DNA of 64,000 nucleotides from Earliella scabrosa (taxonomy: Eukaryota; Basidiomycota; Agaricomycetes; Polyporales; Polyporaceae), in contig JABYQQ010000039.1 of NCBI GenBank assembly GCA_022605405.1, forward strand, positions 82,219-146,218. The letters are read 5' to 3'. The notes under the pieces are model-generated. The model saw only the letters and a program-made list of their open reading frames with translations, had not been told where the DNA came from and made no database searches. Both the position numbers and the translations under genes were made by a program. Positions 28,952 to 58,456 of this stretch are shown here, in pieces (the first letter of the stretch is position 1; every line of letters begins with the position of its first letter).

Positions 28952-29011
28952 CTTGGTTGCTAACTTGTTCCTCATCTTGATTTTGATCTGAGTGAACTGA
29001 AGTGCGTACTG

Positions 29012-29017: not shown

Positions 29018-29081
29018 GCGTCAGGCCTAAGGCTGCGCGAACGCTCTACCCAAGTCTACCCATCCAGCAGCCTCTCGAAGC

Positions 29082-33051: not shown

Positions 33052-33517
33052 GGGAGGGAAGAGAGAGGAAACGAGTGGAATAAGTACCTCGCCACCCGTA
33101 GTAGTGGGACCTCCGAGTGCCGCGTGTGACCGGTGGCTGTGTAGGACGGCCCGAGGGCTGTGGCCCCCGTAATACTGGCCGGGACCAGATCATCTTTGCT
33201 GCGTTACTACTAGTCTCCGTTAGCACGGTGTTGCTCGCTACACCTGAGGCCACACATGACGCGTCTGGGCGCTTGTTCGCTGTGGTTGTGGTGTCGGGCG
33301 GTGGTGAGCAGATTTCTCTTCACTGAGCAACCCGTTCTTCACAAAAACTACCATGACTGAGCCTATAATGTGTAAGAGCGTGTATCTCGAGATTCAGAGG
33401 GATTCATGAAAGCAGTGGCCGGCGAGTCAAGTATCGAGTTTCGAGCGCTAAAATTCACTGTACCCGGACAATTTGTCCTTGTTTGTCCCCTGCGAAGTGC
33501 GTCCAGTCAACGCCTAT
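33052..33517. other. Host flank left of the giant element
   Basis: Non-coding promoter side of the DUF4436-like copy 2, ending in the TAT target-site copy (33515-33517). Confidence 0.6.
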
Positions 33518-35635
33518 CACGGCGGGCAGCGCCCAGAAAACGGATGCGAGAAAAGTCAGGAATAACCTCCACTAAGCCGACTTTTCTCGTACTTGTCCCG
33601 CGCTTTGTCGGCAGCTGAACAAGTGACAGGTTTCCGACGTTCTTCTGATGTTATCTGGTGACCAGACAGGCAGAGTTTGCAGCGACTTACGCAGGTGCGC
33701 GAAAGGTCTTGAACAGGCGACATGTTCGGGACATTTCTGCATCCGGAATACGGTCCCTGAAAGGTGACAGACCATGAAAATTTCTTGTTACTATTCTAAT
33801 CATTGACAGAAGAACTTTCTCAGAGACAACCTCGAGCGGCAAGAAAGGACCGGAAAATATCAACTCCCTGTAAACGTGAAAGGCCGGCATAAACAGCGAA
33901 AGAGGCGGTCCTTTCAGGTGCACGTAAGTGCCGGAATCCATTGACCTTCTTGCAGCCGGAAATATCTCACTGAACAGGTCGCCTATTCCGGACACCAAAA
34001 AGCGTCGACTAGGTCACCTTTCCCCTCGGCGAAAAATAAGCCTCCTACGCCACACCCCGACGCGCCGCGCCACATCCCGACGCACCGCGCCACATCCCGA
34101 CTCCTCACGCCGCTCCCCGACGCGTCGCACCGCACCCCGACGCGACACATAGCCCTTAAGAGCACCCCGATGCTCTGTATCTGTCCTCATAGCCCTCGTA
34201 GACGACTGCGACCGACGACGACGAGACACACAGCGCCGTCAGTCTCGATGCTCGGCACCACCCACGACGCATGACGCCTCATAAGCCACGACAGAGCTCT
34301 GCGCCCACAACAAGTCCGGGTCGACGCCTCCAAAACCCGACAACGCCGACGGACGACTTGCAGACGACGCACGATGCGCTGCCCCTCTCGTTCGTGCCTC
34401 GGCGGCTACACCAGGTCTTCCCTCCCACACTCCGCCCTTAGTTCTGGCATTCGCTTGACAAATGTCGGGCAGAGCAGGTACGACGACCGCGCACTCCGTC
34501 GCTGCCATATGCGCTCACCTCTGCTCTCTCCTCAGCTTCCGCTCTGCCGTCGCGCTCGTGCGCTGTTCGAGAGGGGTACGGCCCAACTTCGCGCAGTATG
34601 GCGCAATGTTCGCGCCCGGGGACTGCTCGACGAGGACACCACGCCAGTCGTGCCGAGCAAGCACGACGACCGTGCGTTCCGTCGCCGCTGCGTTACGCAC
34701 CTGCCTCCGCCCTCCCTACATGCTCCAGTCTCCGCTCCGCTGGCGCGCTCGTGCACAGTCCGAGAGTGGCACGGCACAATGGCATCGTATGGCGCGCTGC
34801 TCGCGCCCGGTGACGACACCACGCCAGTCGCGCCGAGCAGCTACCGTTCAGTCGCCGCCGCATTACGCACCTGCCTCCGCCCATTGCTCTCGCCTCCGCT
34901 CCGCTGGCGCGCCCGTGCGTAGTCCGAGTACAACGGCGCCCTATGACGCACCGCTCGGGCCCAGTGAGTTCATGACGAGGATGCCACGCTGGTCGCGCCG
35001 AGCAGCTACGACGGTCATGCGCCGCGTCGCCGCAATATGCAACCGCCCCCGCCCCCTGCAAAGCCCCTCTACTCTGCTGGCGCGCTCGTGCGCACTCCGC
35101 GAGTGGCACAGCACAACGGCGCCGTATGACGCATTGCCGACTGCGCGACGAGGACACCACGCCGCCCGCTGCGTCGCCGTCATACACACTCGCCCGCGCC
35201 TAGCACAGTCCAAGTACGCGAGCCGGGGCTCGTGATCGTCTCGTCCGGAGCCGATCGCATGGAACGATGTCGGGCGTAGCGTCTCCCCGCCGTTGTCCCG
35301 CTCATGAGAGGGCTCCGCTACCGCGCTCGTGCGTAGTCCCAGAGGCAACACTCAACGACGCCGTATGATGCACTCCTCTCGCCCGGCGACTTCACGAGGC
35401 CGGTCGCGCCGTCGTCCGCGATATGCAACCGCCTCCATGCCCTGCCCCCTCCTCAGCCTTCACTGCCCCATGTGCCGATTCGCTATCGTGCTTCAGGAGC
35501 GCACCCGTAAGTGTACATGAAATGATGTGTCATAGCAATATCATACAGTACTTGTCCATCGTGCCGGAGTCATTGGGTGCGTCAAAAACCCCCATCAGGA
35601 GGGAAAAAGCTACCAACGACCTGCGCACATTTGCC
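33518..35635 (+). repeat. Left terminal inverted arm
   Basis: Inverted match to 56003-57829. The first 270 bp or so is nearly identical. A GC-rich block at 34040-34150 has short CACCCCGACGC-type repeats, and longer repeats follow from 34370. The inner end is set where the shared GTGCGTCAAAAACCC ... GGGAAAAAGCTACC motif (about 35578-35613) stops matching; that inner border is approximate. Confidence 0.82.
34370..35420. repeat. Subterminal tandem repeats, left arm
   Basis: About five diverged units of roughly 140-170 bp recur. Each contains GAGTGGCACGGCACAA-like, CGCGCCGAGCAGCTACGAC-like and CCGCTGGCGCGCTCGTGCG-like blocks. Long open frames here are a by-product of GC bias, since several frames stay open on both strands. 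In CACTA elements such repeats are binding sites for an element-encoded protein. Confidence 0.7.
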
Positions 35636-35697
35636 GACCCATTACTCCCTAGCACGCGCACCCTCCAAGGTTGTCATGTGGCCGCGCAAGGTCTCGT

Positions 35698-36941
35698 TCA
35701 ACCGGTTGGAGGTCTACCGGCTGTTAATACACATTCCAAGGCTACGATCATGGAACTCACCTCGGTAAGCCTGGCGCACTCGATCCAGATGACCTCGTAT
35801 AGTTCGAAGGACTCACGAACATCGCCGACAGAAATCGGACCTCCTTGAGCCGAGGGCGTACTGAGCGTGCTGTGATTGACGTTTGCTACCTTCATGATGG
35901 ACTAACAGAATGTGAGCGAGCTCCTGACATTGTGTATAGTTCATATGCACACACCTTGAGATCGTCCACGAGAGTCATCTGCGTCGCGGTCTGCTCGGAG
36001 AGTTCGCGTAAGAGATCTTGGTACTTCGCAACCGCCGAGCACACTTCAGACGTCGGCAGGCGATTGCCCGGGCGATTGCCAGTGATCCACAAGTCAAGAG
36101 AATCCTCCCAGAGCGCGTTACTCTTTGTCAGCAGGTCTCCGCGGGACTCCGCAAGTTGTTGGAGAGAGCTGACCACGTCGTCCACACGACTGGGGAAGGT
36201 TTGTGACGTCCAGGCACGCCTTTCGTTGATAACTTGGTCGCACCCAAGGCGCCCTTCCTACACATACGATGAGCCATTACAACATGTAGCTGGCAATCTG
36301 TAAGCACAATCAACATACCTCCGTTAGTAGAAGGTTGAAGCAGGGCCGCCATCGCGCAACCGTTGTCCTCATCGTTGCAGCTCGCCGACGGGCTTCCTCG
36401 CAAAGCCGCTCCAACTCCGAGTAGGCCTTCTGCATGGACTCCCGCTCGCTAGTCTCTAGAAGTAGTACATTGCTATCGTAGGACATTTTGAACTGAAGGA
36501 TGTCAGTCGGTCAATTTGCGGTGGAACATCAGGATCACTGACCTGTTGCCAAAGCGTATGGTTTTCTCCAGATGAAGTGAACATCCCCAACACGACTGCG
36601 TCGAGACGTCCAGGGAGCTCATCTTCTCCAGGATACAGCTCGTCCAACATTGCACGTCGGTGAGTGACCTCTTGGATTGTGACAGTCGAGAGCGTGTCGA
36701 AACAACCCCTCGCACGCGATGAGAGTACGGGGGACCAGCGGGACATATCTGCTGGCAAGACAAGCTTGTCGCGCACACTGTTGAGTGGGATGAAATAGTG
36801 AGCGGGAGACAAAGACATGAGCCACTGAGGGACTACGCACTGGTCCAGCTCCTTGTTGAGCATGTTCACTATGTCTTCTATCATCTGAGGAAAGCCGCGT
36901 ATCAGCGAGATGGCTGCAGGGACTTTAGGACCAGGGGCCAT
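35698..36941 (-). CDS. Cargo gene: predicted helical/coiled-coil protein, unknown
   Basis: Exons 36941-36841, 36777-36543, 36492-36319, 36257-35955 and 35901-35698 join without stops to 338 aa. Charged helical stretches are evident (SERESMQKAYSELERLCEEA; VDDVVSSLQQLAESRGDLL; KYQDLLRELSEQ), suggesting coiled coils. I see no membrane segment or known domain. The ATG at 36941 was chosen; the frame is open further upstream. The last exon might splice once more (GTGAGT at 35760) to end at 35649, but that intron would be only 40 nt. The gene ends at the inner border of the left arm, as the second element gene does at the right arm. Function unknown. Confidence 0.6.
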
Positions 36942-37208
36942 TCTGAAGTCAAAGTGGTAGGAGGTACAGAAAGCGTGCGTCGAGTCGAAGAGCGGATGGG
37001 TGTGCCACCCGGCTCGACGGGCAAGTTGCGTGATCACGCCTGATGACGCACGGGCGCCCACACTGTGCTCACGCTCGACGACTGGTGAAAACTCAATCAA
37101 ATACATTGGAATACAGAAGAAAGCGCAGCCACAACTAGCCATACATACTCTAACAGGAAGAGCCGCGGTAAGTAAGTATATGGTCACAATGCGCATTACA
37201 ACTCACCA

Positions 37209-38257
37209 TCAGCGCGTCGCCTCCACGCCATGTACTCGTACGCGGTAAAGACGCGTCATAGCTCCCCCCCAGTTGCTCCTGACTTCGACGACAAGGACAC
37301 CAAAGAAGATGCGGGACCGAAGTACCGCCGCGTCGATGGGGAAGGTCTGGATATGAGACTCGGCCTTGATGTCGTACTCGAAGGCGGCGAGGGGAAGAAA
37401 GGTGCCGCCGGTTGTGACGGGAGGGCCGTCGCCCGTCGTGTTGAGAGGCGACATACTGAAACGATCGATCGAATCAGCGTAGCGTTGCTCGTTCTCCTTG
37501 CCGTCCAAACCTCCCCAAACAACAATTTGACGGGGAGCTTGAGTGATGGCGGTCGTGAGCTCACGGGGAAGATGGTCGATGGTGACATGAGTGGGGTAGA
37601 TCTGACTGGACAGTTTGATGCCGACTTGACCACTTTCGCCTGAGAAGGACCAACACGACGCGGCGCGAAGGTCTTCATCCAGGATGTTTGAGGGGGGACG
37701 AGCCTTCTCGATCTCGGACTTCGGGGGAGAAGTCAACTTGACGATGACCTTGGCCCCCTCGCCCGCCAGAGCGAAGTCAGGGAGACCAACAGGCCCTCTG
37801 AGAACATCCTTCATGGCCTCCTTGATCTCTTTTTGCACGTAAGAGGCGATGTGCGGGGGAACGGAAGCGGGACGACGTCGGGGAGCGATGCGCGAGAATG
37901 TAAACTTCGGGCGAACATTGGACATGTCGACCAGGGTTCGCGACATGATGCCCGAGTCGTCGCGGACCGCTATGCCAATACACGCACCCATGATGAGGCC
38001 AAACAAGCTGAGAAGAACGACCAAGAGGGTCGACCAACTCCCAGCACTCCGTGGTTTGTTCTCCCTACGAGGATCCCCGCCATTGTCAGAGTCGCTGTGT
38101 GGGCTCCGCGATCGGACGCGCTTGACCTTCTTCCTGTCGTGCTTGGAGTCGAATCGAACGTTTCGATCTGATGGGCCGGTCAGTCAACGTTCAGGAGTCG
38201 AGTGGGACACTACTTGCCAGGTGGCAGAAAACGATCAGGGTCGTAAGGGTCCGACAT
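37209..38257 (-). CDS. Cargo gene: SUN-domain inner nuclear membrane protein
   Basis: Exons 38257-38218 and 38167-37209 encode 332 aa. Residues 1-57 are basic and hydrophilic (RKKVKRVRSRSPHSDS), suited to a nucleoplasmic tail. One membrane span lies at about 58-81 (STLLVVLLSLFGLIMGACIG), followed by a short helical neck and a full SUN domain (about 143-328): FALAGEGAKVI, ASCWSFSGESGQVGIKLSS, PTHVTIDHLP, APRQIVVWGG, closing with SNWGG ... LYRVRVHG. SUN proteins bind KASH tails between the nuclear membranes, forming LINC bridges. The 50-nt intron uses a GC-AG donor (GCAAGT), which is rare but gives a clean ATG start (MSDPYDPDRFLPP). The protein is short for a SUN protein, with hardly any coiled coil. 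Finding it inside a transposon is unexpected. Confidence 0.85.
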
Positions 38258-38704: not shown

Positions 38705-39421
38705 CTATATGGCGTCAGACGGGGGGCAGGAGGTGAGGGCTGGAAGCAGGAGACATCCGAGCCGGACGGCGCGCCGCTCGGAGATGACACTGTTGCGAGA
38801 GATGACGATGACGAGATTGACAACCACCATGGTCGCGAGGGTATACTTGACGAGCAGGAGGACGACGCCAACGATGCCGCGGATCCAGCATAGGAACAAT
38901 GCAGATCCGTCGTAGCAATCGCCCCAATCGCCGCTGAGGTCGTCTCCCGAAGCTGCCATAATGACATCCTCGAAGATAAACTCAAGCAGCGCGCAGACGA
39001 ACCAGAGGACTCCGAGGACGATGCGGCGGATGAACTTGTACACCGTAACGATGAAACCTTCGCGAACGTCGCAATGGCCGCAGGCACAGTAATAGTCGAA
39101 ATCACCGAGGAGAAAGTCTATGATAGCGTCGAAGGCGCGCCTCGGGAGAGAATCCTCGTACTCCAAGACGCAGTTGCTGCCCTCGCTGCCGTCATCGTGG
39201 TTGTCATCGTCTTCGCCCTTGTCAGCGTTGTCAATATTGTGGATGCTGTCGGCGTTGTCGCGGGGGTCTTCGCGGCCACTCTCATCGATGACTTGGGCCG
39301 TCCGTGCGCCAGCTAGATTTACGGAACAACAGAATGAATATGGCGCAGACAAAAAGTCAGAATGTTGATTGGACGTACAGGAGGACGCGGACTTGCGCTC
39401 GTGCTCTATGGAAACAGACAT
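38705..39421 (-). CDS. Cargo gene: small acidic membrane protein, unknown
   Basis: Exons 39421-39379 and 39312-38705, with a 66-nt intron, encode 216 aa. An acidic region (NADKGEDDDNHDDGSEGS) is followed by a short Cys cluster (DYYCACGHCDV), an amphipathic to hydrophobic stretch (FIRRIVLGVLWFVCALLEFIFEDVIM) and a second long hydrophobic span (WIRGIVGVVLLLVKYTLATMVVVNLVIVI). One or two membrane passes are likely. The C-terminus is uncertain: splicing could replace the last residues with the open stretch ending at 38551. No family is recognised. It sits head to tail with the SUN gene. Confidence 0.55.
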   Translation of the reverse strand: MSVSIEHERKSASSCTSNQHSDFLSAPYSFCCSVNLAGARTAQVIDESGREDPRDNADSIHNIDNADKGEDDDNHDDGSEGSNCVLEYEDSLPRRAFDAIIDFLLGDFDYYCACGHCDVREGFIVTVYKFIRRIVLGVLWFVCALLEFIFEDVIMAASGDDLSGDWGDCYDGSALFLCWIRGIVGVVLLLVKYTLATMVVVNLVIVISRNSVISERRAVRLGCLLLPALTSCPPSDAI

Positions 39422-39756
39422 CGCGTTCTGAAGTAGTCCTAGATGGCACGGTGACGTTAGATAGAGAGGATCAACACCATGGAATGCGCCACTCACGTCG
39501 TTGTATGGAGTGGCGAAGGATGCAGGTCGGAGCGTCCAGGGACCGCCCAATGCGAGCCCGCCACGAGAGTACTACCACGCCACTCGCATGAGGCTGACGG
39601 TGTCTTCTGGCATCATCTGGCGTCAGGAGCAGCGATGTGGAGCCGACAGCGCGACGTCGGCAGCAGACACCACACAGTGCACGCCAAAGATACGACCGAA
39701 GAGATGTGTATTGTGCTAGACAAGAGAACTGCTGCTCGGACTAAATAGCGGAGTAA

Positions 39757-40788
39757 TTACCGCGCCTTCGGGTTGCGGAGCTGCTTGATACCCCATCCCG
39801 GAGATACCCATGAAGGCTGGTGCCTCGTCGGGGTGATGGTAAGCCGTCGCCCATCCTCCCTCACATCTCCCTCACGAGTCTTCTTCCAAAATCCAGACCC
39901 GTCGGCCCCGACCGTCCAGATCCAAAGTTGGACCGTGATCTGCGGCAGGTCGAGTACAACATTGCTGTAAAGATCATCAACCTTCAAGTCGGGATACGAG
40001 GTGAGGTCCGGAGGATGGTCGATCGGTTCGGATGAGAACGACTCCCAGAATGGGGTGCGGACGTGGGGGTCTATAGTAGACGTGGTTCTGTTGTCTTTGA
40101 TGAAGAAGGGTTCGCCGTCCTGGGAGGAGATGTCAGAGAGCTGAGTATGCCGGATATCATGCAGAGAGGCGTACCATCTCCCCATATCGCGTGATGAGTT
40201 CCCCGTTAGGCTTCACGTATTCTGCAATGGTGGCCAGCGTAGCCTTCTTCCCAAGCTTCTTCAGAGGCGGCAGCGAACTCCGGGAGGTCGGCTGATTGAC
40301 TCGCGCCGTGCCAGCTTGAGCTTGTGTAGAGCTGCGCGGAGTCGCGGAGGCTTTGGGGAAGGCACGCATCAAGGGAGAGGAAGGGAGGCTGGAGAGGGAC
40401 GACTCCTCGGACGATGAGCTCTCGCCGGAGGGGGAGTGCGCCCTCGGAGTTACTGCTCGCTTCGAAGAGGGGCCAGGCGTGCTCGCACGAGACGCGGAGC
40501 CCTGCTGGTCCTTCATCCGCATTTCATGACGCTTGACCACTTGGGCTGGACGAATCAAACTACGGAGCAGTCAGTAATAAACTTGAAGAATGGAGTGCCA
40601 AAAACGTACGCGGCGGGCTGACTCTTGAAGCGTCGAGTCGCAGTGAGCGCTGCTCCTCTCACACGACGTGCTGGGGCCGGAGCAACACACTCGATAAACG
40701 TGGGTGATCCCGTCTCGCACCGACGCGATGCAGTGAAGTAGTACAGTGGAGGATTGGAGGAGCGTAGTTTGGAGTGGGTGGGAGCCAT
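39757..40788 (-). CDS. Cargo gene: Ser/Pro-rich protein with conserved-looking C-terminal domain
   Basis: Exons 40788-40610, 40559-40175 and 40119-39757 give 308 aa with introns of 50 and 55 nt. The first 60 residues are basic (AALTATRRFKSQ). Residues about 75-150 are Ser/Pro-rich with a polyserine-acidic block (GESSSSEESSLSSLPSSP). The C-terminal 130 residues have mixed, fold-like composition (DGEPFFIKDN, DLPQITVQLWIWTVGADGSG, WVSPGWGIKQ). No known domain is recognised and there is no membrane segment. Coherent splicing over three exons argues for an expressed gene. Confidence 0.6.
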
Positions 40789-41515: not shown

Positions 41516-42199
41516 ATGGCGCATGCCGCACCCGTCAAATTGTTCTACACCGCACCCTGCGAGACTGTCTTCGCATTTGGCACTGACAGCGCGGAGGACG
41601 ACGACTACGCCCTCAAGCCAGTGCAGGTATTTCTAGTAGAGCTGATGGATCCAGTATCCCGTGAGTTGATCCGTATGCGCTTGGAGTAACGAGCTCAACC
41701 ATGTCTCTAGTGCTGCTGTGCACTGTAGTGGATAAGGGTGACGCCGTCACCTTTCGGTCGTTAGAGGTCACACATGAAGGAGTTTCGTCACTGCGCCAAC
41801 TAGTGAGGGCGTCCTCCCAAGCTAGGCAATGCATCATCTGACTCAAAGCTCCTACAGGCACCAACTATGCTGAGCATGCGGCTTCCTTACTTTGGTATAT
41901 TTATCTCCTTCGAGATGCAAGAGATACTCGAAGAGTTCAAGACCGCCTTGAACGAATGGTTCGACGCCAAGGGGACGGTTGACCCGGCAGGACAGCCAGA
42001 ACCCGGCACAAGGCCGACTGTCACAGGCCCTGCCATAGGCGGGGTGAGTGCGGTTACGGTTCTCGAGCATGTTCAATCTTTTGCCGCCATGGTAGAGGAT
42101 GCTAGGTCCCGAACGAACGCTAAGCTCATTTCGGGCACTCCAGAGTCACTCGAGGAATTATGTTCTTGGACGGAAGGGCAGATTGGGGCGGAACGGTGA
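41516..42199 (+). CDS. Cargo gene: 192-aa protein, unknown
   Basis: Exons 41516-41660, 41711-41802 and 41858-42199 encode 192 aa through introns of 50 and 55 nt. The N-terminal half looks like a compact beta-rich domain (VKLFYTAPCETVFAFGTD, VQVFLVELMDPVS, LLCTVVDKGDAVTFRSLEV). The C-terminal half has helices (EMQEILEEFKTALNEWFDAKG; LEHVQSFAAMVEDARSRTN). No recognised domain or targeting signal. It converges with the WD40 cargo gene, 318 bp away. Confidence 0.55.
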
Positions 42200-42517: not shown

Positions 42518-44188
42518 TTACGCAAATTGATCGTCCCCAAATATGTCCTCAAGCTCTCCGTCCAGCCACTCAGCCATGCAGACCAGGTATACCACGACCG
42601 ACATCAAGACGAGCAAGCCCAAGAACAGCGCTATGCCTCCCAGCAGTCTGAGCGAAAGCTAAAAATGTGTTAGCATGGCAGCAGGTGGGGTATGTTGAGA
42701 CACGTACCAGGGACGAAGTGCAACGACGAGCCAGCTTCTTGTCCTTGGCGCGGTCAGACGCCTCGGCGCTCCGCTTCGCCTTGACGGAGCCACCGGCAGT
42801 CCATACAATAATAGGACAAGGACCGTCCTCGTTCATAATGCCCGCCGCTATGATGAATGTATCGTTCTCGCCATCATAGTGGCCCTGCAGAGTGGCAAGC
42901 AGTCAGGCTATGCGCTCAAATCTCGGAGACGATGGATGCTACTCACAGACAAGGCCAGGACTGTCTCATCGTCTACGAAAGCTGATTAGGCCGTACTGAT
43001 ATCGGTAAAAAATGAACATACTTGGGATAGCCAACGAAGGCAGCTTTCGTTCCGACTCGACGAACCAGAGCATCAGGCGGCCATTGGTACTACCCCCCAC
43101 GATAGCAGTCCCGCCGTGAATGAAGGAGACCTGAACTGCACGCGTGTGTTCTCCATCGTCCTTCTGCTTGAACGTCCGGATAATCTCGCCCGCGTTCAAG
43201 TCATAGATCTGGAAGCCGACACCGAGGTTATACGCCGCAAGCAACCCCCCGTTGGGGGATAGACTGCTCGTGATGCTGCCGCGCAGCGGGCGGTGTCAGT
43301 ACTAGGTGCGAGAGTGCGAGGTGATGGTCTCACATGGGTGCGTTGCTATCTATACTCCGAATGGATTGCCACGAGTCCCTGTCAAACAGTCTACGCGACA
43401 TCAGTTCGCGAGTATAACGTGGGCGCCATAGTCAGGTACTGCACTCACTTTATTCCGTGGTTCAGATATGCGACAACAAGACACGCAGGGGTCCAGTATA
43501 TCCCAGTGATCAGAACTTCCGATGTACCCTTGCCCTCATGGCCGGTCTCTGGGCCCGGCTGGGTTGAGTCTTCGGTATCTTTGCGCCCGTCCGTCCGCTC
43601 ACCGCCGCGCGTCTTGCCTTCATGTCGCTTACGAAGTTTATTCTGGCGTTTGGGGGTTCCCGGACCAGGGAGAGACCGGAACAGGCAGGACATGGAGGCT
43701 GAACAAGGTCGTAAATGCCTGGACTCCGCCACATCTAGAACAACACTCACGATCAATGTTCCAGTACCATATGGACAGCTCCTGTTGCGCTCCGGAAGCG
43801 ACCAGCTCTCCCGAGACAGCTAGGTGCTCAACCGGATAGAGATGTCCCCATAAGCCGCGCACGTGAGTAAACTCCTGTAGGCGCAAGATGAGCGAAAGGA
43901 CCGCCTATGAAACGTGCCACTCACCTCGCCTTTGATCATGGACGAGATGATGCCGTCGGCCAGTCCACAGACCAGTGCCTCGTTGTTGAACCAGGCCAGC
44001 GATGTGACTTTGGTCTTCGAGTTATACACGTCTGACAGTGACCAGGTCTTGGTATCCCAGACGCAAACTGTGCCGTCCAATCCGGCGGTAGCGAAAAGGG
44101 AACCGTCGGGATTGAAGACCACCGCTGTGATGCCGCTGGAATGGCCGTCCATCAAGTGGGCTGTTTGTGTGTATCGAATCTCGGACAT
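42518..44188 (-). CDS. Cargo gene: WD40-repeat protein with C-terminal membrane anchor
   Basis: Eight exons, 44188-43925, 43874-43751, 43698-43449, 43390-43334, 43275-43022, 42972-42947, 42884-42708 and 42658-42518, keep frame to give 430 aa. WD40 blades are clear at the start (DGHSSGITAVVFNPDGSLFATAGLDGTVCVWD) and later (SSLSPNGGLLAAYNLGVGFQIYDL; GGTAIVGGSTNGRLMLW). A basic/acidic insertion (about 133-190) interrupts the propeller. The last exon encodes one membrane span (about 389-413, IALFLGLLVLMSVVVYLV) and a short acidic tail. A cytosolic propeller with a C-terminal span is the topology of ER exchange factor Sec12, but I see no Sec12-specific signature. Seven short introns and a clean frame indicate an intact gene. 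Confidence 0.8.
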
Positions 44189-46611: not shown

Positions 46612-48255
46612 ATGCCAACCACCTCTACCGCTTGGGATTCCGATGGGATGATTCAGGCGGATAGTTCACCTGAATCTCCTCGTACGTCCGAGTCGCCCCC
46701 TCGCACGCCCGAGTCGCCCCCTCGCACGCCCTCTCCTCGCATGTTCGAGTCGCCCCCTCGCACGTCCTCATCCCCTCGAGCGGCCCCTCGTCCTTTCATT
46801 CCATCGCCTCCGAGGCCTGTTGTTTCCTCGGACGACTCCTCCTTCGAGGTAAATTCCATGGGATCGTCCGATTTGCCGACCTCCTCTCAAGTGGAGCGTG
46901 TCTCCCCTCGCTCCAGCCTGTCGAGCTCCGATAGGTCAGACACGTCCCAGTCGGACGACAGCATTGCTCTCGAAGACCGCCATATGGACTACGATGTCCC
47001 CTGTGCCGCTCAGGACGACGACATCGCGCCACTACTGTCTTCGTTGGCGGAGCTTCAACTACACTCCAAACCAACCACTCCATCGCGCGGACGATTGACG
47101 CCAGGAGGCTACACTGCTCCGGTATCGGAAGACATGGTCCCCGCTGAGGACGCCGAGTCCAATGCCGCCTTGTCCAGGCACTTCTTCAAGACGATCAAGG
47201 GCATGCTGCGCACTCAAGTACGTTTGTCCCCACTTATGCCAGATACGCAGGCTGACGTTCAAAATAGACTATTATCGACAAGCGGACGGTTGAACTAGAG
47301 AGTGAGCTCGCCCGTTTACGCGCTCAATTCGTCGAGTCCGTCAAGACATCCAGGAGTCTGCTAGTGAAAACCAGGGGTACGTCTTACGTCACTCCGTCCT
47401 CTGGAATCCCCATACTGACTCTCCAGCACAGAGACAATTGTGCAAGAACGTCGCGACATCGCCAGAGCGCAAGAAGGCGCGTGCGACACCGTGAAAGCAC
47501 TCGAACAGCAGCTCGCCAAGGCTCAAGTGGCCATCGCGACTCTCCAAGCCCAGCATCTCGCCAACAAGGAGGCGATGGATAGCATGTCCAACGATATTGC
47601 CGCGGTTCTTTCTATCCAGGACGAGATGGGACGTCAGTTGGAGCGACTGGACGAGTGCGAACAGAAGATTAGACACGACGTCCACTCCACAAGGGAGCGT
47701 CTCGCCGAACTGGCCTCCGATGAGGCTTTCCCTCCATTGGCCAACATCTACCCGACGCGTTCCAGCTTGGCCGAGGAGCTGTCTGCCGTAGCTACTCCCC
47801 TCGGCGTCGCACACCGAGGACAGGACGCGAATGCATCTCCCCAGACCGCGGGCGTTCCTGAGCGCTCCGCGGATGTCTCCGCCGCCCATCCCTCAGGCGC
47901 CGGCAGAGGTGCAAGTCTTTCTCAAGCTGATGAAGATCAGCATCAGCGGGCAACCATGCTATCGCGCGTTGCAGCGTTCCTAGCAGCCAGGATCTCTGTA
48001 GGCGAGGACGTTCTAAGCAACAGTTATAGGGAACTCAAGCTGCGAGTCCCACGACCCATGGTTCGTCCTCAGACCAACGCGTCGAAGTCAGTGCTAATAT
48101 TGTTCAAGGACATGAAAGCGACGACCGCCCGCACGATCAACAATATTGTCATGTACGCTGATTGGAACACCATTTCTCGGACCGTGGCTGCATTCGCTGC
48201 GGTCATATGCGTCGTGCTCGTCTGGTGGCTGCAACTGCGCACGCCGCCCAGCTAA
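46612..48255 (+). CDS. Cargo gene: coiled-coil tail-anchored protein with KASH-like end
   Basis: Exons 46612-47217, 47268-47376 and 47432-48255 encode 512 aa. The N-terminus is Ser/Pro-rich with repeats of ESPPRTP type (about residues 20-65). A long coiled coil follows (about 203-320: KRTVELESELARLRAQFVES; VKALEQQLAKAQVAIATLQA; DEMGRQLERLDECEQKIRHD). One membrane span lies at the extreme C-terminus (about 490-507, VAAFAAVICVVLVWWLQL), leaving only RTPPS. A cytosolic coiled coil, terminal span and very short tail ending in PPx match the plan of KASH proteins (canonical end PPPx), the partners of SUN domains. This assignment is inferred from layout; the motif is one proline short of canonical. 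A generic tail-anchored ER protein is the alternative. Confidence 0.7.
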
Positions 48256-48517: not shown

Positions 48518-51500
48518 ATGCCTATCTGCGAGTGCTCCCCATGTGTCAAAACGTCCACATACGAAGACGGCGATGGAGTCATCCGCCCTGGTTCCCGTTT
48601 ATCAACATCCGACTACAAACTTCATCAGCTGGCCGAGAGGAAGCGTCAAGCTCGGGCAAAAGATCAAGAGCAACGAGTCGCCTCTGAGATCCTGTTCACC
48701 ACTCTACGGCCGACGACATCGAACTCAATGCCCGTTCGCAACCGTGACGTGCTGGATTCCGTCGTCGACAAACTGCCGTCGTCAGGCGCTGCGGCGATGT
48801 CTACAATCCCGTCCCAAGTAAGTCTTCGTCCTCCCTGCGATTATCTACTACACACTTTTCATGTGGCATCCAGGATGTAGTGGAGGCGGATCATACAGAA
48901 GCTATCGTGGACTCATTTAGCCATCTCTCGTTGAAGGTCACCATTTTACCTCCTTGCCCAACATAGACCGACTGATACCTACACTAGGATGAGGCGCGAG
49001 CTCGTATCGTCGCCATGGGGAAGCTAGAGGCGCAGATCTATCGCCGATCCCTTCACGTACCACTGTCAACTAGGCTCGTCTTCGAATCAGCTCCCTCATC
49101 CGCCTCTGAGCCTCCGGGAGCGCTGGCGTCCGTGGCCCACAACTCTGCCTTCATTGACTTCCGTTCCTGGCTCGAACAGAGGAAAGAGGAGCTGCGCGCG
49201 ACCATCCTGCCCCTTGGCCACAATGATGCCGACAACAGGCGCACGTCGAACATGAAGCGGCTTGACGTGCAGCTCGCTCGACTGGACAGGATACTTGCGT
49301 GGTCATGGGATCAAGCAAAGGTACTCGCTCGAGTCCCAGGTTACTACGTGCTTCCGGACGATGAGAGACCAATCCTTATAACGCCTCGTTCGTCTTCCTT
49401 TCCTCACCTGCCCTATTGCTTGTATTCTAATTGTGCATTCACAGCTCCCGCGCTCGAGACACGTACCTCGATGGAGCCCGTTTTGTTAGCATGCCTTATG
49501 ATGGTGACGGTCCTCCACGCCATAGCAGCTATGTCTCGTCCCATCACCGCATATGTCCTCTCCACACTCAAGGTCGTCATCCTCGGCATGATCATCGCGC
49601 AAGGTTCTGCGCCCACTCAAACACAACGCCTGCTCATGGAGAATCTCCCTAAGGACGTCCGTACGCGATGAAGATGCTCCATCTCGTCCCCGATATCGTC
49701 ACCTATGCATGTTGTCGCGAATGTTTTGCCATATATGAAGCCGACTTCTCAAAGCCCCGCGACCCCTTCCCTCGCTTCTGCACCCACAAGAAGACGCCTG
49801 CCGCGAAAGCTTGTAATGAGCCTCTCGTGTTCGAGAGGATTATTGGAGCGGTCTTGCCAGGCGATACGAGACATTCCCAATGGACGCCATTTCGCACGTA
49901 CCCGTGTCGGAGTCTCAAGGCGTGGCTAGCCGAATTCCTCTTGCGCATTGGCATCGAGAAGTTCATCGCCGACTCATGGGTAGAGCCGACGCGTACCGAC
50001 GCGTGGACTGACATCATGCAGACACCCGGCATACGGGGCCTCATAGGCCCTGACGGCAAGACGTCGTTCTCGGTGCAGGTCGACGGCGAGTTGCATCTAG
50101 TGTTCAGCCTGTTCGTCGACTGGTTCAACCCGCGGGGCAACAAGGCTGCGGGGAAGTCGCACAGCATAGGAGCCGTGTACCTGTGTTGCCTCAACCTGCC
50201 TCCCCATCTCCGTTATCGCCCGGAGAACATCTTCTTGTTTGCGATCATTCCTGGACCCCACGAGCCCAATGTACACCAACTGAACCACCTCCTCCGACCC
50301 CTCGTCGACGAGTTGCTGCAGCTGTGGCACTCGGGAATCCTCCTCCAGCGCACCGCAGAGCGCCCGGCGGGACGCCTTGTGCGCGTTGCGGTAGTGCCAC
50401 TCATCTGCGATCTGCCCGCCCTGCGGAAGACGGCTGGCTTCGCTTCGTACTCTGCCGCTCATTTCTGCAGCTTCTGTCAGCTGCTCGAGAAGGACATCAA
50501 CAACGTCGATCGATCCACATGGCCGCCGGGTTGCTCGTGGACAGAGCATCTCAAGCACGCGAACGCGTATCGCCAAGCACGCACGGGCAAGGAGCGGAAG
50601 AATGTGTTCGACGCCCACGGAATCCGATGGTCCGAGCTCCTCCGTCTACCATACTGGGACCCTACGCGGTATGCTCTTCTCGATGCCATGCATAATCTTT
50701 TCCTGGGCGAGCTCCGCCACCACTGCATCCGTATTTGGGGCTTGAAGACCGCGGAAAAGCGCGCTACACCGCAACGAACGGCAGTGCATACCCAAGACCA
50801 GCAGGGAGAGCAACTCAGACTGATTCACAGAGGTCTAGTTGCTGGTCACGAGAACGTCATGGCCCGCGCGAGGCGAGACTATCTGGTAGCCGTTGCAAAG
50901 TTTAACAACGTCGAGATACCTCCGAGCAAGAGCACGAAGGCTGGAATAGCCGCAGTCCTGCTTGAATGGGTGAGTCATCGCCATATCCGTCATGGGCGAA
51001 GCATTGAAAAAGCCGTGCGAGGAAGGTGAAGAAGGTTCCTGGAGGAATAGGCGCGTTCAAACTGCCACCTACGCAGCCATATTCCATGGTCGAATTCCGC
51101 CTGCCTGGCGATGAGCCGGAGCCAGAAGACATCAGCGGGATCTTTTCACCTCTTCTGTGTTGAAGGAGCTACGCGCCGACATCTCTGCAATGTTCATTCC
51201 GTCCTGGCTTGAGAGGCCTCCCCGCACAATCGGAGAGCGAGCTCACGGCAAACTGAAGGCTGACCACTGGAGGACCCTATGTACCGTACCTATGGTGATG
51301 ACGCTGGTGCGCCTTGGGGTATACCAACCGCTTTCACATGAAGAAGCTCTCGCCCTGGAGAACACATGCATCTCGTTGCGGCCGTCGACCTCGCGACTCG
51401 ACGCTCTATGTCTCCCGAGCGCGAACGCCTTCGATCCCACATGGAGGCATACGTACAAGGCCTGAGAACGCTATACGATTGCCCAGCTTGTCCCTAACCA

Positions 51501-52436
51501 TCACCTCTCTCTTCACTCAGGGAATGCCTGCTGCTCTTCGGACCGACATATGGGTGGTGGGCCTTTCCCTTCGAACGATACAATGGGCTACTTCAGAGGC
51601 TGAACACAAATCACAAATCCGGTGAGTCCGCTTCCTGAAACCTTGCTTAAGTATTGATGATATTACAGCTGAGATGCCCGGACATTCATTCGGTATTTCT
51701 ATATTGGCGCAACGTTACGTTGGATGATGGATAGTGCAAGTGGCCAACGCTAACTGCGTACCAGGACATGCTACGCGCTTTCGCGAAGCGTTCGAGAGCC
51801 ATCGCAAGGGATCAAACACGACGGACATTCTCTCGTCGATCGTGAGCGAAGACGATCAGGACTCGTCGCGTCGTCGCAAGGCGGGAGTGCATCGCACGTT
51901 GCCCCTCGACACCTACGACAGTGTTCGCGCGCTCATCAACGCGACCCGCATCGACGCCGTTTGGCTCCATCCACGAAGGACGCATAGGCGACTTGCGCTA
52001 CCTCCCGATTCGGCCGAATTCGTGCGAAGCGTCGATCACGACGGTGTCACCTACGCCACGTCCACAGGGGGTCGACGTACACTCCTTCATCCTCTTCATG
52101 TCCCATCCAGCCAAGAGGTTGTCGCTGGCCAGATCTCTGAGATATTCTACCACACACGACGCATCGATGCCGAAACAACTGTCGAGGAAACCCTTCATCC
52201 TAGTACATCGGTTCAAGACGCTGTCCGAAGAGCACATCCCATTGGATCCATATCGGAAGTTCCAGACGTCCCTTCCTGGCTATGCTACAACGAACTCTCA
52301 CCTGAACAGGAAGTAGTGCGGTCTGGCAGACGTGACTTGTCATTTTGCAGCGCTCATGTACGTTCCGGAGAGCATTGGGCGCGAGTGTGTTGTGGTGCGG
52401 TCACTGGACAGGGTGAGTCCCTAGTTCTCTGTGCTT
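48518..52436 (+). pseudogene. Tnp2/Plavaka-like (CACTA superfamily) transposase, frameshifted
   Basis: Recognisable exons start at 48518 (MPICECSPCVKTSTYEDG, then LAERKRQARAKDQEQR) with introns 48818-48873, 48937-48987 and 49388-49444. The long exon 49668-50969 holds the core: YACCRECFAIY, IEKFIADSWVE, VDWFNPRGNKAAGKSHSIGA, LNLPPHLRYRPENIFL, ICDLPALRKTAGF, HGIRWSELLRLPYWDPTRYA and MHNLFLGELRHHCIRIWG. The family's conserved order continues to 52436, but in shifting frames. Single-base shifts are visible near 49664, 51147, 51361, 51478, 51520 and 51676, with more in 51.9-52.4 kb. No single spliced frame covers the protein, so the copy is inactive unless the sequence is faulty. It would have catalysed excision and integration using the terminal arms. 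Confidence 0.82.
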
Positions 52437-52836
52437 GACACGTTGCGGGTTTCCTCGTCGTGCTTATTGAGCGTTTCAGAGCTGAACATTACGTCGGACC
52501 ATCTCTGTAGTTACTGCATGATGTCATGCCGCTGGCGGATTCGATGTGATACGCTAAAAGCCTGAGCCTCTGGGTGTCTTCACGAAGTTCTTTCGGGAGC
52601 CCTTCGACGCGGTACGTACGTCTTCCATTGTGGTCTATTGCCAGTGCTCTAGCCTCTAGGAGCCGCTAGGTGTCGTCACATTCTTTTGGGAGCCCTTCGG
52701 CGCGGCGCGTTTGTCTTCCATTGTGTTTCGTTCCTTACTGAGTGGCGCGCCTGCTCAATGAGGCTTTTGTATTGAATGTCTATAGAAGCGCAGGCAAGTC
52801 CCTCGCTAACTCTGCACTTCGTTTCCGCTCTTGAAT
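52437..52836. other. Spacer between the two element genes
   Basis: 400 bp; a GGAGCCGCTAGGTG/GGGAGCCCTTCG-type motif occurs twice (52558-52730). No gene. Confidence 0.45.
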
Positions 52837-55800
52837 ATGTCATCTACAGAACCACGCCTCCGCCTCCAGAGCAACCTCCCGCCCTCACGCGTCCTCTCCC
52901 TCCGGAGCCGAAAGCCGAGTGGCCACCTTGAAGGTGGTCCGTCATCGCAGACCCCAGCGGAGACGCCTGCGGAAGCCTCTCACGACAACCGCCTCCCAGC
53001 CACTCCGCCGAGGCACGAAGACCCCGCCGTGGAGCTCCTTCAACTACTCCTCCTGAATCGCCCGCAGTTCAGGCGCTGTCGCGCGCCACTGGTTCTCCGG
53101 AGCAAGCCGCCGTGGTCGCAAGCGTCGTAATCGTGGCGCCGATCAACTTGAGAACGAGAAGTCCAGTCGGACAGAGGCCGTGGTACGCCTATCGTGTGCT
53201 CCAGTTCTCCTCCACCAGCTGAGTCGCATTTAGCACTGGGCACCCCCTCTCACTATCCCAGAGACCCCAAAAACCCGGAAGAAAGGTCCGCTCCGACGCA
53301 TGGCAGAACGGGCTGCAGCCGCGATGCAGCCGCGGCCAGCTGAAGAAGCTGTCCTTCAGACACCTCCCCCGCGTCGCGCTCTTCCTAACCTGCCGCCACA
53401 CCACGCGTCATCGGATCCCAACGCGTTCCGCAACCTCCCCCCGTTCAGCAGCAGCAGCTGGCTGACCATGTGCAGCCCTTGACGACTCGCCAGGGCGAGC
53501 AACAACAGCAAGGGGCCCCGCAGTACCCTCCCCAACCCGCGCAACCTCTCGTGCAGCCTCTTCAGCACGCGCAGCTGCCCCTGCAGGCTCCCTTGATTCA
53601 TCTCCCTCAGGCGGCCTTGCAACACGCGCAGCTGGTCCAGTACTTGCCACAGATGCAGTACGTGAACCCCGCTCAGCCCATCGGACAGCCTGTGGCACCT
53701 ATCCCGCAGATGCATCAGCCGAACCTGGACAATGTGAGCTCGAGTTGACAAGTTGTCGCGTCTATTCCGGCGCTGATCATGATTAGCAGCGTGCCCCTCA
53801 GCCTGGGTACCAATATGCGTATAACATGTTGCAGTACATGCAGCCAGAGCAAGCTCAGCAAGTTCCTCAGCCTCAAGCTGGCATCTCGGCACCAGTCGCT
53901 GCTGCTGCTGCCCCTCCAGCGACGCCTGGACGCTCTCCTCATGCACCCCGCCCCGGGAAGGCTCTCCAGAAGCCTTCGTCTCATCCGAAGACTCCGCGGT
54001 CGCGTGGGCACCCGTACAGCGGCGATCGCGACAAGCGCAATGCGGTCCGCTTCAACATCGCAAAGGTATGTCCCTCCGATACTGCTTCACCATAAGTCAA
54101 ACACTGATACCCGGGCCTTGCCTGACATTGCAGCGGCTACTAGCGAAGAAGCAGACGAGGAAGAGACGCACGGTTGCCGACAACAACAACGACGACGACG
54201 ACGACGATCCCATGGATGCGGACGCCCGGGCCAGCGAGGACGACGCTGACATCGAGGACAGCTCTGATGAACGGGATTATGATGACGGCGAGCTTGACGA
54301 CGACGACGACGACCTCAATCCAGACATCAGCGCCGAATTAGAAGACTTCATGGAGAATTATGTATGTATTCATCTAGCATTGCTATGACGCTATCATTCA
54401 GCTAAAGGTCCTTCGCCAGCTCGGAAGTGGAACCGGGGACGAGGAGGGCGTTGGCAACGAGGAGGGGACCGGTGCCGGGGACGAGGACGAGGACGAGGAG
54501 GGCGTTAGGGCGACGGAGGACGACCCCGAGCGGCCTCCGCAGCCCGTCAATCTACGCACGATGTTCGAGCTGCCTAGTACCCAGCAGAAAAGGCCGGCGA
54601 ACAAGAATGCTCGACGCGGTTTCGGGCAAGAACAACTCACATTCCATATCCTGGATCAAGTGAATGTGATGATGACGGAGAATCGTGCGTTTAAGTGAGT
54701 ACCAGTCGTCATCGTCAATTCATCCGGAGCCTCCTGACCTGACTTGCATCAACAGTAAATTCGTGATTAAGCGTCTAGAGAAGCTCGAGAAGCGGTTGGC
54801 TGGCATGGAACAGGGAGCGGCCACTTCGACGACGGTGCCCCCCGTCCAGACCAAGAGACTTCGTGCCCCGAAGGCATCCCGCTCCAAGGCGTCCCGCATT
54901 GAGCTGCCTCCTTCCGAGGATGGCAAGCCGCGAACGCGCGCCGAGATCGAAGAGATGGCCGCCATCGAACTCTTGTACCTGAACCGCGCTGCAGTACGCC
55001 TATCCTCGAGTGCTCAGATTATATGCCCACTGATGTACTTTCAGCGAGTCGTTCGTATCCATCTCAAGAAGCTCCTCGGTGCAAGGTCGTACCAGGAGAT
55101 AGCTGCGAAATGTCCGCCGCTCACGGAGGACGAGATCAGCGCGTACAACAGGAGTCCCATCGATCAGGAGTACTTCTCGCCCAGCAAATTCCGTGTCGAC
55201 TGCTCCCAGCCTTGGGCCACATTCCCTTACAATGTGGATGCTCGCGACTACTTCTTACGCCACCTGATCCACTGTCTCGAGGGCGGTGAATACAAACGGG
55301 AAGACCTGCAATTCCCTGAGCGGTACTGGACGGTTTACCCACCTCGGCGCCGCATTGGACTCGCACATGGAACATGTTCGCGCTCGAGTGCGACAGATCC
55401 AGAACCCGTCTCCCGACTTTGATAGCGACGAGGATGCAAAGAAGAAGCGTGCGCGTGCGCGAAGGACCACAGTGCGTATCCATACCGATATTCTACATCT
55501 ATCACGATCTCACTATGTCCCTAGCTATACGAAGGCCGGGTAGCGGTCATCATTGACCACGGTTTCGACGAGCACGTCGACCTCATCAGCCGACTCAGCG
55601 CCGGGAACCTCAGCGAGGACGAGACTGACGCGGAGGGCTCCAAGCAGCGGTCTCGCGAGAACAAGTTCATCATTCATCGGGTCCTCTGGATGAGCGACGA
55701 ACTGAGAAACCTCCTCCGCCGGCTCGACGAGATCCACATCGACGACTTCGAGAATCTGGTCTTGAAGAAACGTACGGGCGGTAGTGCTCCGCGCAAGCGG

Positions 55801-55992
55801 GACGAGGCGTATCCTATCAGGGCAGAGTTGGGGAACCCTGCCAAAGGTCTCTGGCGCAACTGCTACAACCCGCAATGGCTGGCGACGCTGAAGCCTCATG
55901 AATATCGCGCTCTCCGGATTATCGAAGAGGACTACGACTTCAGCCTCCCGGAAGAACAGCCGGAGTTCGTGGAGGGCAGCAGCCAAGGCTGA
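52837..55992 (+). pseudogene. Second transposon gene (acidic accessory-type protein), frameshifted
   Basis: Exons trail the transposase on the same strand. The 5' part (52837-53480) changes frame near 53050 and 53430. It continues as a Gln/Pro-rich stretch (53485-53733), then exons 53791-54066, 54134-54363 (acidic: DNNNDDDDDD, DDDDDLNPD), 54409-54694, 54755-54994, 55045-55333 and, after another one-base shift near 55333, 55334-55470 and 55531-55992. The well-preserved C-terminal half (RRIHLKKLLGARSY-type helices, NKFIIHRVLWMSDELRNLLRRL, GNPAKGLWRNCYNPQW) looks like a conserved domain I cannot name. By analogy with the second gene of CACTA elements it may bind the subterminal repeats. Three or more frameshifts mark it as decayed. 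Confidence 0.65.
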
Positions 55993-56002
55993 GATCGCGC
56001 GT

Positions 56003-57829
56003 ATGCACCCGTCGCCGCTGGTAGCTTTTTCCCCTCTACTCGGGAGGGTTTTTGACGCACCCAGCGGTCGTGGCAGCAGAGATTGTTACTTCGCCGGTAC
56101 GAGAACATATTGTTGTATTCTGTACTATTCTCTATTCTACAGTGTTCGATGAGACAGAGACAGAGGAGCCGTGTCAGCGGAACCCACAGGGACGTCGGAC
56201 ATCGCAGCATGTGCCCCATTGCACAGTCAAGGAGCGAGTTGGCATTGAGCCGCGGCGGGAGGAGTGCGCGGTACGGCGCAGTTGTGTCGTGCCACTCGCG
56301 GACTCGAACTGCGCACGAGCGCGCGGGCAGAGCGAAGACGGAGGAGGGGCTTCAATGCAGGGCGCGGAGGCGGTTGGCCACGCCCGGTCGTCGTAGCTGC
56401 TCGGCGCGACCGGCGTGGTGTCCTCGTCATGGACTCACCGGGCCCGAGCGGTGCGCGATGGGGCGCCGTTGTACCGCGCCTCACTCGGACTGCGCACGGG
56501 CGCGCCAGCGGAGCGGAGGCGAGAGCATGTACGGGGGCGGAGGCAGGTGCGTAATGCGGCGGCGACAGATCGCACCATCGTTGTAGCTGCTTGGTGCGAC
56601 CGGCGTGGTGTCGTCGTGCAGTCGCCGGGCCCGAGCAGCGCGCCATACGATGCCGTTGCGCCGTACCACTCTCCGACTGCGCATGAGCGCGCCAGCAGAA
56701 GGACAGAGTGCTTATGGCGGCGGCGCAGCACCCTGTCGTTGCTGGCAGATGCTCTGCGCAACCGACATGGTGTCCTAGAGGCTAGCCGTGCAGTTACTCG
56801 CGAGGAGTGCGCCATGCCGCGCCGTTGTACCGTGCCACTCTCGGACTGCGCACGGGCGCGCTAGCGGAGGGGAGGTGGAGGCTGAGGCTGAGGCTCGACG
56901 AAGCATGTGTAGGGGCCCACCCACGGCAGTCGGCGAAGTGCGAGCAATAGGGGCGGCGCAGCGTGCGTCGTCTCCAAGTCGTCCGTCGGCGTTGTCGGGT
57001 GCTGGAGGCGTTCGGAGTTGTTGGGCGCAGAGCTCGGTCGTGGCTCGTGAGGCCTGAGACGCCATGCGTCGTGGGGGCGGCGCCGAGCATCCTTGAAGAT
57101 CGTGCAGCCTCACGGCGCTGTGCGCCTCGTCGTCGTCGTCGGTCGCAGTCGTCTACGATCGCTGTGAGGAGGGAGCATCGGGGCGCTCATGATAGCTATG
57201 TGCGGCGTGGGGGTGCGGCGTGGAGGGTCGGGATGCCGCGCGACGCCTCGGGGTGCGGTGTGATGCGTCGGGGGGTGGCGCGGCGTGTCGGGGTGTGGCG
57301 TAGGAGACGTATTTTCCCTCTGCAGGAAAGGTGACCTATTTGTCGCTTTTCCGTATCCTGAATAGGGAACCTGTTCAGTAAGACATTCCGGCCGCCAAGA
57401 AGGTCAATGGATCCGGCACTTACGACGACCTGAAAAGCTCGCCTCTTTCGTTGTTTATGCCGGTCTTTCATGTACGCGGGAAATTGGTCTTTCCTGCTCC
57501 TTTTTTGCCGCTTGAGATTGTCTCTGAAAAAGTTCACCTATCAACGATCAGAATAGTACGAAGAAATTTTCATGGTCTGTCACCTTTCAGGGACCGTATT
57601 TCGGATGCAGAAATGTCCCGAACATGTCGCCTGTTCAGGACCTTTCGCGCACCTGCGTAAGTCGCTGCAAAGTCTGCCTGTCTGGTCACCAGATAACATC
57701 AGAAGAACGTCGGAAACCTGTCACTTGTTCAGCTGCCGACAAAGCGCGGGACAAGGACGAGAAAAGTCGGCTTAGTGGAGGTTATTCCTGACTTTTCTCG
57801 CATCCGTTTTCTGGGCGCTGCCCGCCGTG
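56003..57829 (-). repeat. Right terminal inverted arm
   Basis: Inverted counterpart of 33518-35635, ending CCGTG before the TAT target copy. The arm is shorter than the left one because it has fewer subterminal units. The inner border is approximate. Confidence 0.82.
56220..56960. repeat. Subterminal tandem repeats, right arm
   Basis: About four to five diverged units with the same blocks as in the left arm, inverted (CGCACGGGCGCGCCAGCGGAG, GTCGTAGCTGCTCGGCGCGAC-like). Both strands are open over hundreds of bases, so the long frames here are not evidence of genes. Confidence 0.68.
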
Positions 57830-58456
57830 TATGGGGTATGCTCGCTTCGCTCGCAATTACAGCAGTGAACGCAATCACCGCGGATCCACTGCTACCCTGT
57901 AAGTGGACTAACTGCCATAGAATACTACGGCTGTGAGTCATGCACCGTGACAGCGTCGGTCAGGAATCTTTCCCTTGTTCCCGACGCCGCGGCACGCCTG
58001 CCAAAATTACATCTCTTCTTCAAAGGTGCGCCCAGCCAAACCTCACCAAGTTTGCCAGTAAAGATGATGCTCGCCCCATACTGTGGCTTACTTATGCGAA
58101 TGGCTTCGCTCTAACAGATCACGGACGTGGGAACATCGATCGTATGTCGCCTACTAGTACTCAACATGCTCCTTAGTATACTTATTGTCACCACCATCAT
58201 ATTCAGCGAAAACAGTGGCTCAGGTGAAATAGGGACACCGATCAGTATGTCAAACGATGAGTCGGATATGCAGTAGGACAAAGCAGCATTTCTGACTGGG
58301 ATCGCGGCGCTAGAGACCACAAACTTCGCGCAATCGATCGGCGCGCCAGCAAGACCCTCTGACGAGAACACGGCAAGTTCATCTTGATTTCTCGCATTGC
58401 TGTGGTTGGACTAACGGAGACGTCTAGAACGATCGCGCAGCGACTACGACATAGTC
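57830..58456. other. Host flank right of the element
   Basis: The stretch begins with the TAT target copy. A short leader-like frame starts at 57838 (MLASLAITAVNAITADPLLP) only a few bases from the insertion, but it has no supported continuation. No gene is called. Confidence 0.45.

Follow-up and report, generated by a model that had tools for sequence, protein, structure and literature searches.

A 24,312-bp element in the genome of the polypore Earliella scabrosa is very probably a giant DNA transposon of the Tnp2/CACTA type with a conserved accessory gene set. It occupies positions 33518–57829 of the analysed 64,000-bp stretch (hereafter the window; C39:82219–146218, running to the end of contig C39), with limits exact to the base, and its relatives were searched for in the 51.67 Mb of this genome (48 contigs). 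The reading as a transposon is based on (i) exact ends; (ii) 3-bp target-site duplications; (iii) related empty sites; (iv) several insertion sites; and (v) short derivatives. Where two lineages of the element were compared gene by gene, the changes were mostly at silent sites. We infer that the element moves by cut-and-paste rather than by copy-type transposition and that its accessory genes serve the element.

Termini, target-site duplications and insertion sites

The element begins with CACGG at position 33518 and ends with CCGTG at position 57829. Its left terminus reads CACGGCGGGCAGCGCCC and its right terminus is the reverse complement of this sequence, each being adjoined by TAT. The boundaries and arms are as follows.

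33515–33517, no strand: left target-site duplication TAT, read in the window; a single TAT is present in related empty sites
33518–33787, plus strand: left terminal inverted repeat, outer 270 bp, starting with CACGGCGGGCAGCGCCC, from the arm comparison
33788–35137, plus strand: left subterminal arm, an imperfect inverted repeat of the right arm, with a 20-bp-period array at 34048–34144
56265–57559, minus strand: right subterminal arm, with a 20-bp-period array at 57205–57301
57560–57829, minus strand: right terminal inverted repeat, outer 270 bp, from the arm comparison
57830–57832, no strand: right target-site duplication TAT, read in the window; a single TAT is present in related empty sites

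The two arms are 100% identical over the outer 50 bp, 98.1% over the outer 270 bp and 85.2% over the outer 900 bp, whereas shuffled controls for the 270-bp comparison gave a mean identity of 56% and a maximum of 61% (n = 50 shuffles). Imperfect inverted-repeat pieces reach inward to approximately 35.1 kb on the left and 56.3 kb on the right. The motif GGTGAC, which was picked after inspection of these same sequences, was counted 14 times across 4,181 bp of terminal sequence and short derivatives, whereas shuffles gave a mean of 2.2 and at most 7, and 18 further occurrences are located in the interiors of two large copies. The CACGG…CCGTG ends, the TAT on both sides, the nearly identical outer 270 bp and the subterminal tandem repeats had all been described in the original prediction, which was made from the window sequence; all of them can be read in the sequence, and with the exact ends and the Tnp2 transposase described below, its proposal of a CACTA-type element that is complete, bounded and rich in genes is confirmed.

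A search with the terminal 300 bp, which the original prediction had suggested as a way to find other copies, revealed further copies in this genome: the query matches 8 places, comprising both ends on C39, C2 and C43, one end on C11, and a 62-bp fragment on C33. The C43 flanks are equal to those of the window, apart from one 1.04-kb duplication at approximately 28 kb, which is distant from the element; C43 is thus not a third insertion but duplicates the window's own locus as a redundant contig. The C2 copy (1484333–1508652) has a different left flank, and its right flank is equal to that of the window over the 6.2 kb compared. The C11 copy (1640667–1649941) is cut by the end of the contig 9.3 kb inside the copy, and its outer flank is different again. 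Within the range covered by C11, the C2 copy shares the C11 substitutions up to window position 51206 and is equal to the window from position 53030. The triplet TCC ends the C2 left flank and begins the C11 flank, which points to a second insertion with its own 3-bp duplication. Most simply, the genome would contain two insertions, A (TAT) and B (TCC), and the C2 contig would pass from one to the other within the element; A and B would then differ by approximately 49 substitutions in 24.3 kb (39 and 10). The C2 copy, being of B type up to position 51206 and of A type from position 53030 with the window's right flank, is therefore excluded as an independent intact insertion, and its mosaic structure is either an assembly switch or a real recombination.

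The left flank of insertion A is a repeat, and the joined flanks match other copies of this repeat across the join. On C5 and C8, CAACGCCTAT is followed directly by GGGGTATGC, with one TAT and no element between them; a third related site, on C22, has the same join with six extra bases preceding the TAT (3 copies read). These sites are other copies of the target repeat elsewhere in this genome and not the same site in another strain, that is to say, the empty TAT sites that the original prediction had proposed to look for were found as related sites, away from the window locus.

Class of the transposase and the wider family

The transposase exon of the window matches the Pfam family Transposase_21 (tnp2, PF02992) with an E-value of 4.6e-16, and the transposase protein of the related copy on C22 matches it with an E-value of 4.4e-15, both above the curated cut-off. 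The Plavaka model PF18759 gave no match to the transposase at E-values up to 1 in the window and up to 0.5 in the scan of the C22 protein, although the same model matches 126 stretches elsewhere in this genome, none of which lies inside the ten bounded copies described below. By this test, the element is therefore of the CACTA/Tnp2 type and not a Plavaka element, and the earlier "Plavaka-like" label is not supported. Plavaka elements are likewise fungal and CACTA-related; the difference is that their model does not match this transposase.

Elements of the CACTA/EnSpm (CMC) group have CAC-type inverted ends, 2–3-bp target duplications, subterminal repeats and a second element gene beside Tnp2 (PF02992). 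As judged from its sequence, the window element shares the Tnp2-type transposase, CAC-starting inverted ends, 3-bp duplications, subterminal repeats and a second element gene with this group. It differs from the group in that (i) the ends are CACGR rather than CACTA; (ii) the copies measure 24–81 kb end to end; and (iii) there is a recurring accessory set of a SUN protein, a WD40 protein with a transmembrane segment, an LRR-like protein and a tail-anchored coiled-coil protein. To our knowledge, such a set has not been described in any CACTA element. The Starship giant transposons of ascomycetes also span tens of kb, move as whole units and contain many genes. However, Starships have a tyrosine recombinase at one end and variable cargo, whereas the present elements have a Tnp2 protein, inverted ends and a recurring gene set. 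No tyrosine recombinase captain was found among the Pfam matches of the scanned element exons and proteins, a scan that did not proceed frame by frame through the element. No relatives of the transposase exon were confirmed in viral contigs or in bacterial and archaeal genome contigs.

In CACTA elements, the Tnp2 protein cuts the ends and is helped by a protein that binds the subterminal repeats. By analogy, the whole element would be excised and reinserted, with 3 bp duplicated at each insertion; its Tnp2 transposase would act on the terminal and subterminal repeats, probably together with the protein of gene 9, which is, by position only, a candidate subterminal-repeat binder.

Pattern searches based on the end sequence gave additional end pairs that enclose transposase relatives; among the matches listed, the following six have directly matching 3-bp duplications.

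C28:389394–424563: 35,170 bp, duplication TCT
C1:126782–164688: 37,907 bp, duplication CGC
C3:2559175–2640313: 81,139 bp, duplication AGA
C6:1794224–1843754: 49,531 bp, duplication TTG
C8:838368–865175: 26,808 bp, duplication AGT
C14:697101–770630: 73,530 bp, duplication CCA

All six are larger than the window element, which is thus not an unusually large member as had been supposed. These sizes are end-to-end lengths of intervals that are not proven to be simple elements, and the larger copies may hold nested insertions. SUN and WD40 loci each occur twice in the C14 interval, and an 8-kb piece from the middle of the C3 interval yielded two gene predictions that resemble neither the window nor the C22 copy. 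Two further copies, C1:1417492–1441856 and C22:86632–110996, are each 24,365 bp in length, and their flanks match only crosswise (TCT/AGT and AGT/TCT). As for C2 and C11, this flank exchange reflects either assembly switches or real recombination between copies. A candidate 106-kb element on C4 (830938–937083) was rejected: its two identical ends have flanks that, as far as they were read, are reverse complements of each other, and the interval may represent either a large inverted duplication or an assembly palindrome.

Among the single-contig end pairs, not counting C43, the target duplications match directly in 7 of 11 and across contigs in 3 of 11; the remaining pair is that on C4. An assembly artefact, or a chance pairing of repeats, could inflate the apparent size and completeness of the element, and the exchanged flanks of the C2, C1 and C22 contigs, the redundancy of C43, an error stretch in the window and the inverted duplication on C4 would fit such an explanation. 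We nevertheless consider it extremely improbable, because seven single-contig end pairs have matching 3-bp duplications, because, in the pairs of the nine relatives compared (including C4, C1:1.42M and C22), the two ends agree completely over their first 50 bp, and because related empty sites exist.

Pairs of similar ends approximately 0.45–0.7 kb apart are common, with at least 12 pairs of a type of approximately 546 bp among the matches listed. These short derivatives (for example, C1:733228–733773 and C20:221014–221560, approximately 0.55 kb each) have ends like those of the giant elements and no room for element genes. The three short pairs that were read all have 3-bp duplications (TTT, AGG and TTA); in two of the 546-bp type, end stretches of approximately 65 bp are 77–82% similar to the ends of the large elements, and the third pair has no such match.

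Two further observations concern individual loci of the family. A broken A-type copy at C33:177420–181983 comprises the 62-bp end fragment, a stop-bearing SUN gene at 89% identity and pieces of gene 1, and lies near matches to another family member. Inside the 81-kb interval, C3:2600726–2603392 (L084) encodes a predicted protein without a Pfam family above the cut-off, which by eye presumably resembles the fungal TET/JBP-type dioxygenases.

Gene content and its conservation

The element contains approximately nine genes according to our own gene finder, which was seeded on the window and approximately 20 kb of flanks and retrained on the window predictions, and to comparison with the C22 copy; the gene models are approximate. 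Tnp2 and gene 9 are probably the transposition genes among them.

35530–36941, minus strand: gene 1, conserved protein without a Pfam family above the cut-off; limits taken from the model of the C2 copy, since genes 1 and 2 were fused by the finder on the window alone
37209–38183, minus strand: gene 2, SUN-domain protein with a basic N-terminus, one hydrophobic segment and a Sad1/UNC domain; 5′ end not placed
38705–40788, minus strand: gene 3, judged by eye to be a membrane protein; model uncertain in its 5′ half
41516–42199, plus strand: gene 4, small conserved protein with at least 2 exons, placed by eye through similarity to the C22 model
42518–44152, minus strand: gene 5, WD40-repeat protein with a C-terminal hydrophobic segment
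45143–46323, plus strand: gene 6, LRR/F-box-like by eye only, without a Pfam match
46648–48255, plus strand: gene 7, coiled-coil-like protein with a C-terminal hydrophobic segment
49015–52424, plus strand: gene 8, Tnp2-type transposase; indels in this assembly disrupt its 3′ half, and its 3′ limit is taken from the C2 copy
53324–55992, plus strand: gene 9, a second conserved protein of the element, resembling TnpA only in its position
51143–53395, no strand: stretch with 27 gap columns (26 runs) relative to C43, C2 and C11, which all agree

The gaps at 51143–53395 most probably stem from errors of the assembly; they interrupt the transposase reading frame of the window in its 3′ half. In gene 7 of the window, an in-frame TAA (48253–48255) cuts off the last 8 residues, and the C2 copy runs on to 48279. 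The AlphaFold model of the gene 6 exon alone was poor (mean predicted local distance difference test score of 43) and was not used, and a PDB search with gene 9 gave no match at E-values up to 0.1.

The C22 lineage (24,365 bp) has the same genes in the same order and on the same strands, with 62–70% DNA identity in collinear blocks; its genes were first fused by the finder, which was rerun on hand-set stretches. The ratios of nonsynonymous to synonymous substitution rates (dN/dS, Nei–Gojobori) between the window copy and the C22 lineage were 0.14 for gene 1, 0.15 for the SUN gene, 0.43 for gene 3 (191 codons aligned), 0.19 for the WD40 gene, 0.25 for the LRR-like gene, 0.22 for the coiled-coil gene, 0.26 for gene 9, and 0.08 and 0.11 for two parts of the transposase. 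Gene 4 was seen by eye and stands outside this count.

The bounded set comprises the end pairs that enclose a transposase relative, with C43 and C4 left out. Relatives of the transposase, SUN, WD40, LRR-like and gene 9 were all found inside 10 of 10 bounded copies, which represent eight lineages and span 24.3–81.1 kb; relatives of gene 7 and gene 1 were found inside 5 and 6 of the 10, respectively. A similar association was observed genome-wide. Among 32 transposase loci, a SUN locus was located within 60 kb in 17 cases (approximately 1.7 expected), a gene 9 relative in 18 (1.8), a WD40 locus in 17 (1.9) and an LRR-like relative in 15 (1.2). In these counts, exon rows were joined per locus (which reduced 44 SUN rows to 25 loci and 81 WD40 rows to 28), near-identical copies (A/C2/C11 and C1/C22) were counted separately, and the gene 9, WD40 and LRR-like queries originate from this element family, so that its own members are favoured. 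The transposase loci are those of 33 kept that remain without C43, after seven weak loci were dropped (C3:2.94M, C4:2.58M, C2:1.45M, C26, C16, C13:0.18M and C25). Conversely, 23 of the 25 SUN loci (22 of 24 without C43) are located at most 90 kb from a relative of this transposase; the only two that are far from such transposases, C12:1197994 and C26:210014, are taken to be the host's own SUN genes. If the gene set is general, this would explain why the genome has 24 SUN loci (without C43), with just two of them at a distance from such elements.

These results bear on whether the additional genes are cargo, as had been suggested. In an ordinary gene capture, a CACTA element would have recently picked up host genes, which ride along and decay. 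SUN and WD40 are common host domains, the A-type SUN copy on C33 carries stops, and plant CACTA elements are known to capture genes, all of which would suit such a capture. However, the same genes occur in the same order in a lineage at 62–70% DNA identity, dN/dS is below 0.5 for every gene compared, and five gene types are present in all ten bounded copies. The low dN/dS and the recurrence in 10 of 10 copies thus already contradict a recent capture, which we regard as very unlikely, and "cargo" does not suit genes that are found again in eight lineages within this genome, with dN/dS of 0.08–0.43 relative to C22.

Several points weigh against a giant transposon with a conserved gene set, as do some details of the SUN proteins given in the next section. 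Four of the 11 single-contig end pairs (C2, C1:1.42M, C22 and C4) lack a matching duplication on their own contig. Synonymous divergence (dS) is high (0.7–2.3), and the dN/dS ratios are rough and rest on approximate gene models. The broken SUN copy on C33, used as a neutral control, failed as such in that it also gave a dN/dS of 0.20 relative to A; a low ratio therefore reflects selection over most of the interval and not intactness today. Finally, excision and expression are predictions from a single genome assembly.

If the gene set is general, these elements would constitute a class of fungal DNA transposons that greatly exceed the usual CACTA element in size, with a stable genome of approximately nine genes that includes a protein of nuclear-envelope type. 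For annotators, this is a warning that many SUN and WD40 genes listed as "host" genes may belong to transposons.

The SUN protein and a possible role at the nuclear envelope

The gene 2 product contains a SUN domain (PF07738, E-value 5.2e-23; SUN2 in the PDB, E-value 8.3e-15). The Sad1/UNC domain follows a hydrophobic segment (Kyte–Doolittle window), and the N-terminus is basic. The proteins of genes 5 and 7 each end in a hydrophobic segment followed by a short tail. The C2 and C22 copies of gene 7 share 11 of their last 12 residues, compared with only 10 of the preceding 42; a gene 7-like tail was seen by eye on C28 and was not found in the 801 bases of C8 read. The SUN protein and the tail-anchored coiled-coil protein may point to a role of the accessory proteins at the nuclear envelope.

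This arrangement resembles the SUN–KASH system (linker of nucleoskeleton and cytoskeleton, LINC) in having a SUN domain after a hydrophobic segment and, tentatively, in having a separate candidate tail-anchored partner with a terminal peptide conserved between two lineages. It differs in two respects: the KASH-lid region is shortened, and the gene 7 tail ends in PPSEYPLWDSL, whereas animal KASH peptides end in PPPX. The SUN proteins of the A group are approximately 12 residues shorter than human SUN2 in the region that we take to be the KASH lid. Moreover, a late cysteine of the host-like SUN is absent in the A, C22, C8 and C1:1.61M proteins, and is present in C14:710188 and C12:796320. The shortened lid and the lost cysteine speak against ordinary KASH binding. 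In a SUN tree of 12 rows, the A group, together with C14:710188, C12:796320 and C4, is split from the presumed host gene C12:1197994, but the SUN loci C6:2041178, C1:3455001 and C17:1014595, which are near more distant transposases, group with C12:1197994. Repeated uptake of the SUN gene is therefore possible; alternatively, the tree may be too small to decide.

The SUN protein, together with the tail-anchored coiled-coil (gene 7) and WD40 (gene 5) proteins, might sit at the nuclear envelope and tether or position the element DNA or its transposition complex there, a proposal that we consider possible but rather unlikely. Its more specific form is speculative and, in our view, doubtful: the giant CACTA lineage would encode its own nuclear-envelope bridge, consisting of a short-lid SUN protein and a co-evolved tail-anchored partner, which would anchor or position the element DNA, perhaps so that it moves between, or is inherited with, the paired nuclei of the dikaryon. 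There is about an even chance that the accessory genes serve the transposon in another way, such as counteracting silencing or giving one dikaryon nucleus an advantage at cell division. The shortened SUN lid agrees with such a role, as does the fact that most accessory proteins were assigned no domain in the Pfam scans. By contrast, the usual N-terminal hydrophobic segment of the SUN protein, and the two further proteins with a C-terminal hydrophobic segment and a short tail, favour envelope tethering. If the gene set is general, the question of whether transposons exploit nuclear architecture for their own spread becomes testable.

Rfam and tRNA scans of the window gave no matches. In the left flank of the window, positions 26929–29062 contain a 1,043-bp unit that is repeated exactly in direct orientation, the two copies being separated by a 48-bp spacer, which is the reverse complement of 29092–29139; C43, otherwise identical in this region, holds one copy of the 1,043-bp unit. 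A lysophospholipase gene (PLA2_B, E-value 2e-32) is located at positions 29031–29909 of the same flank.

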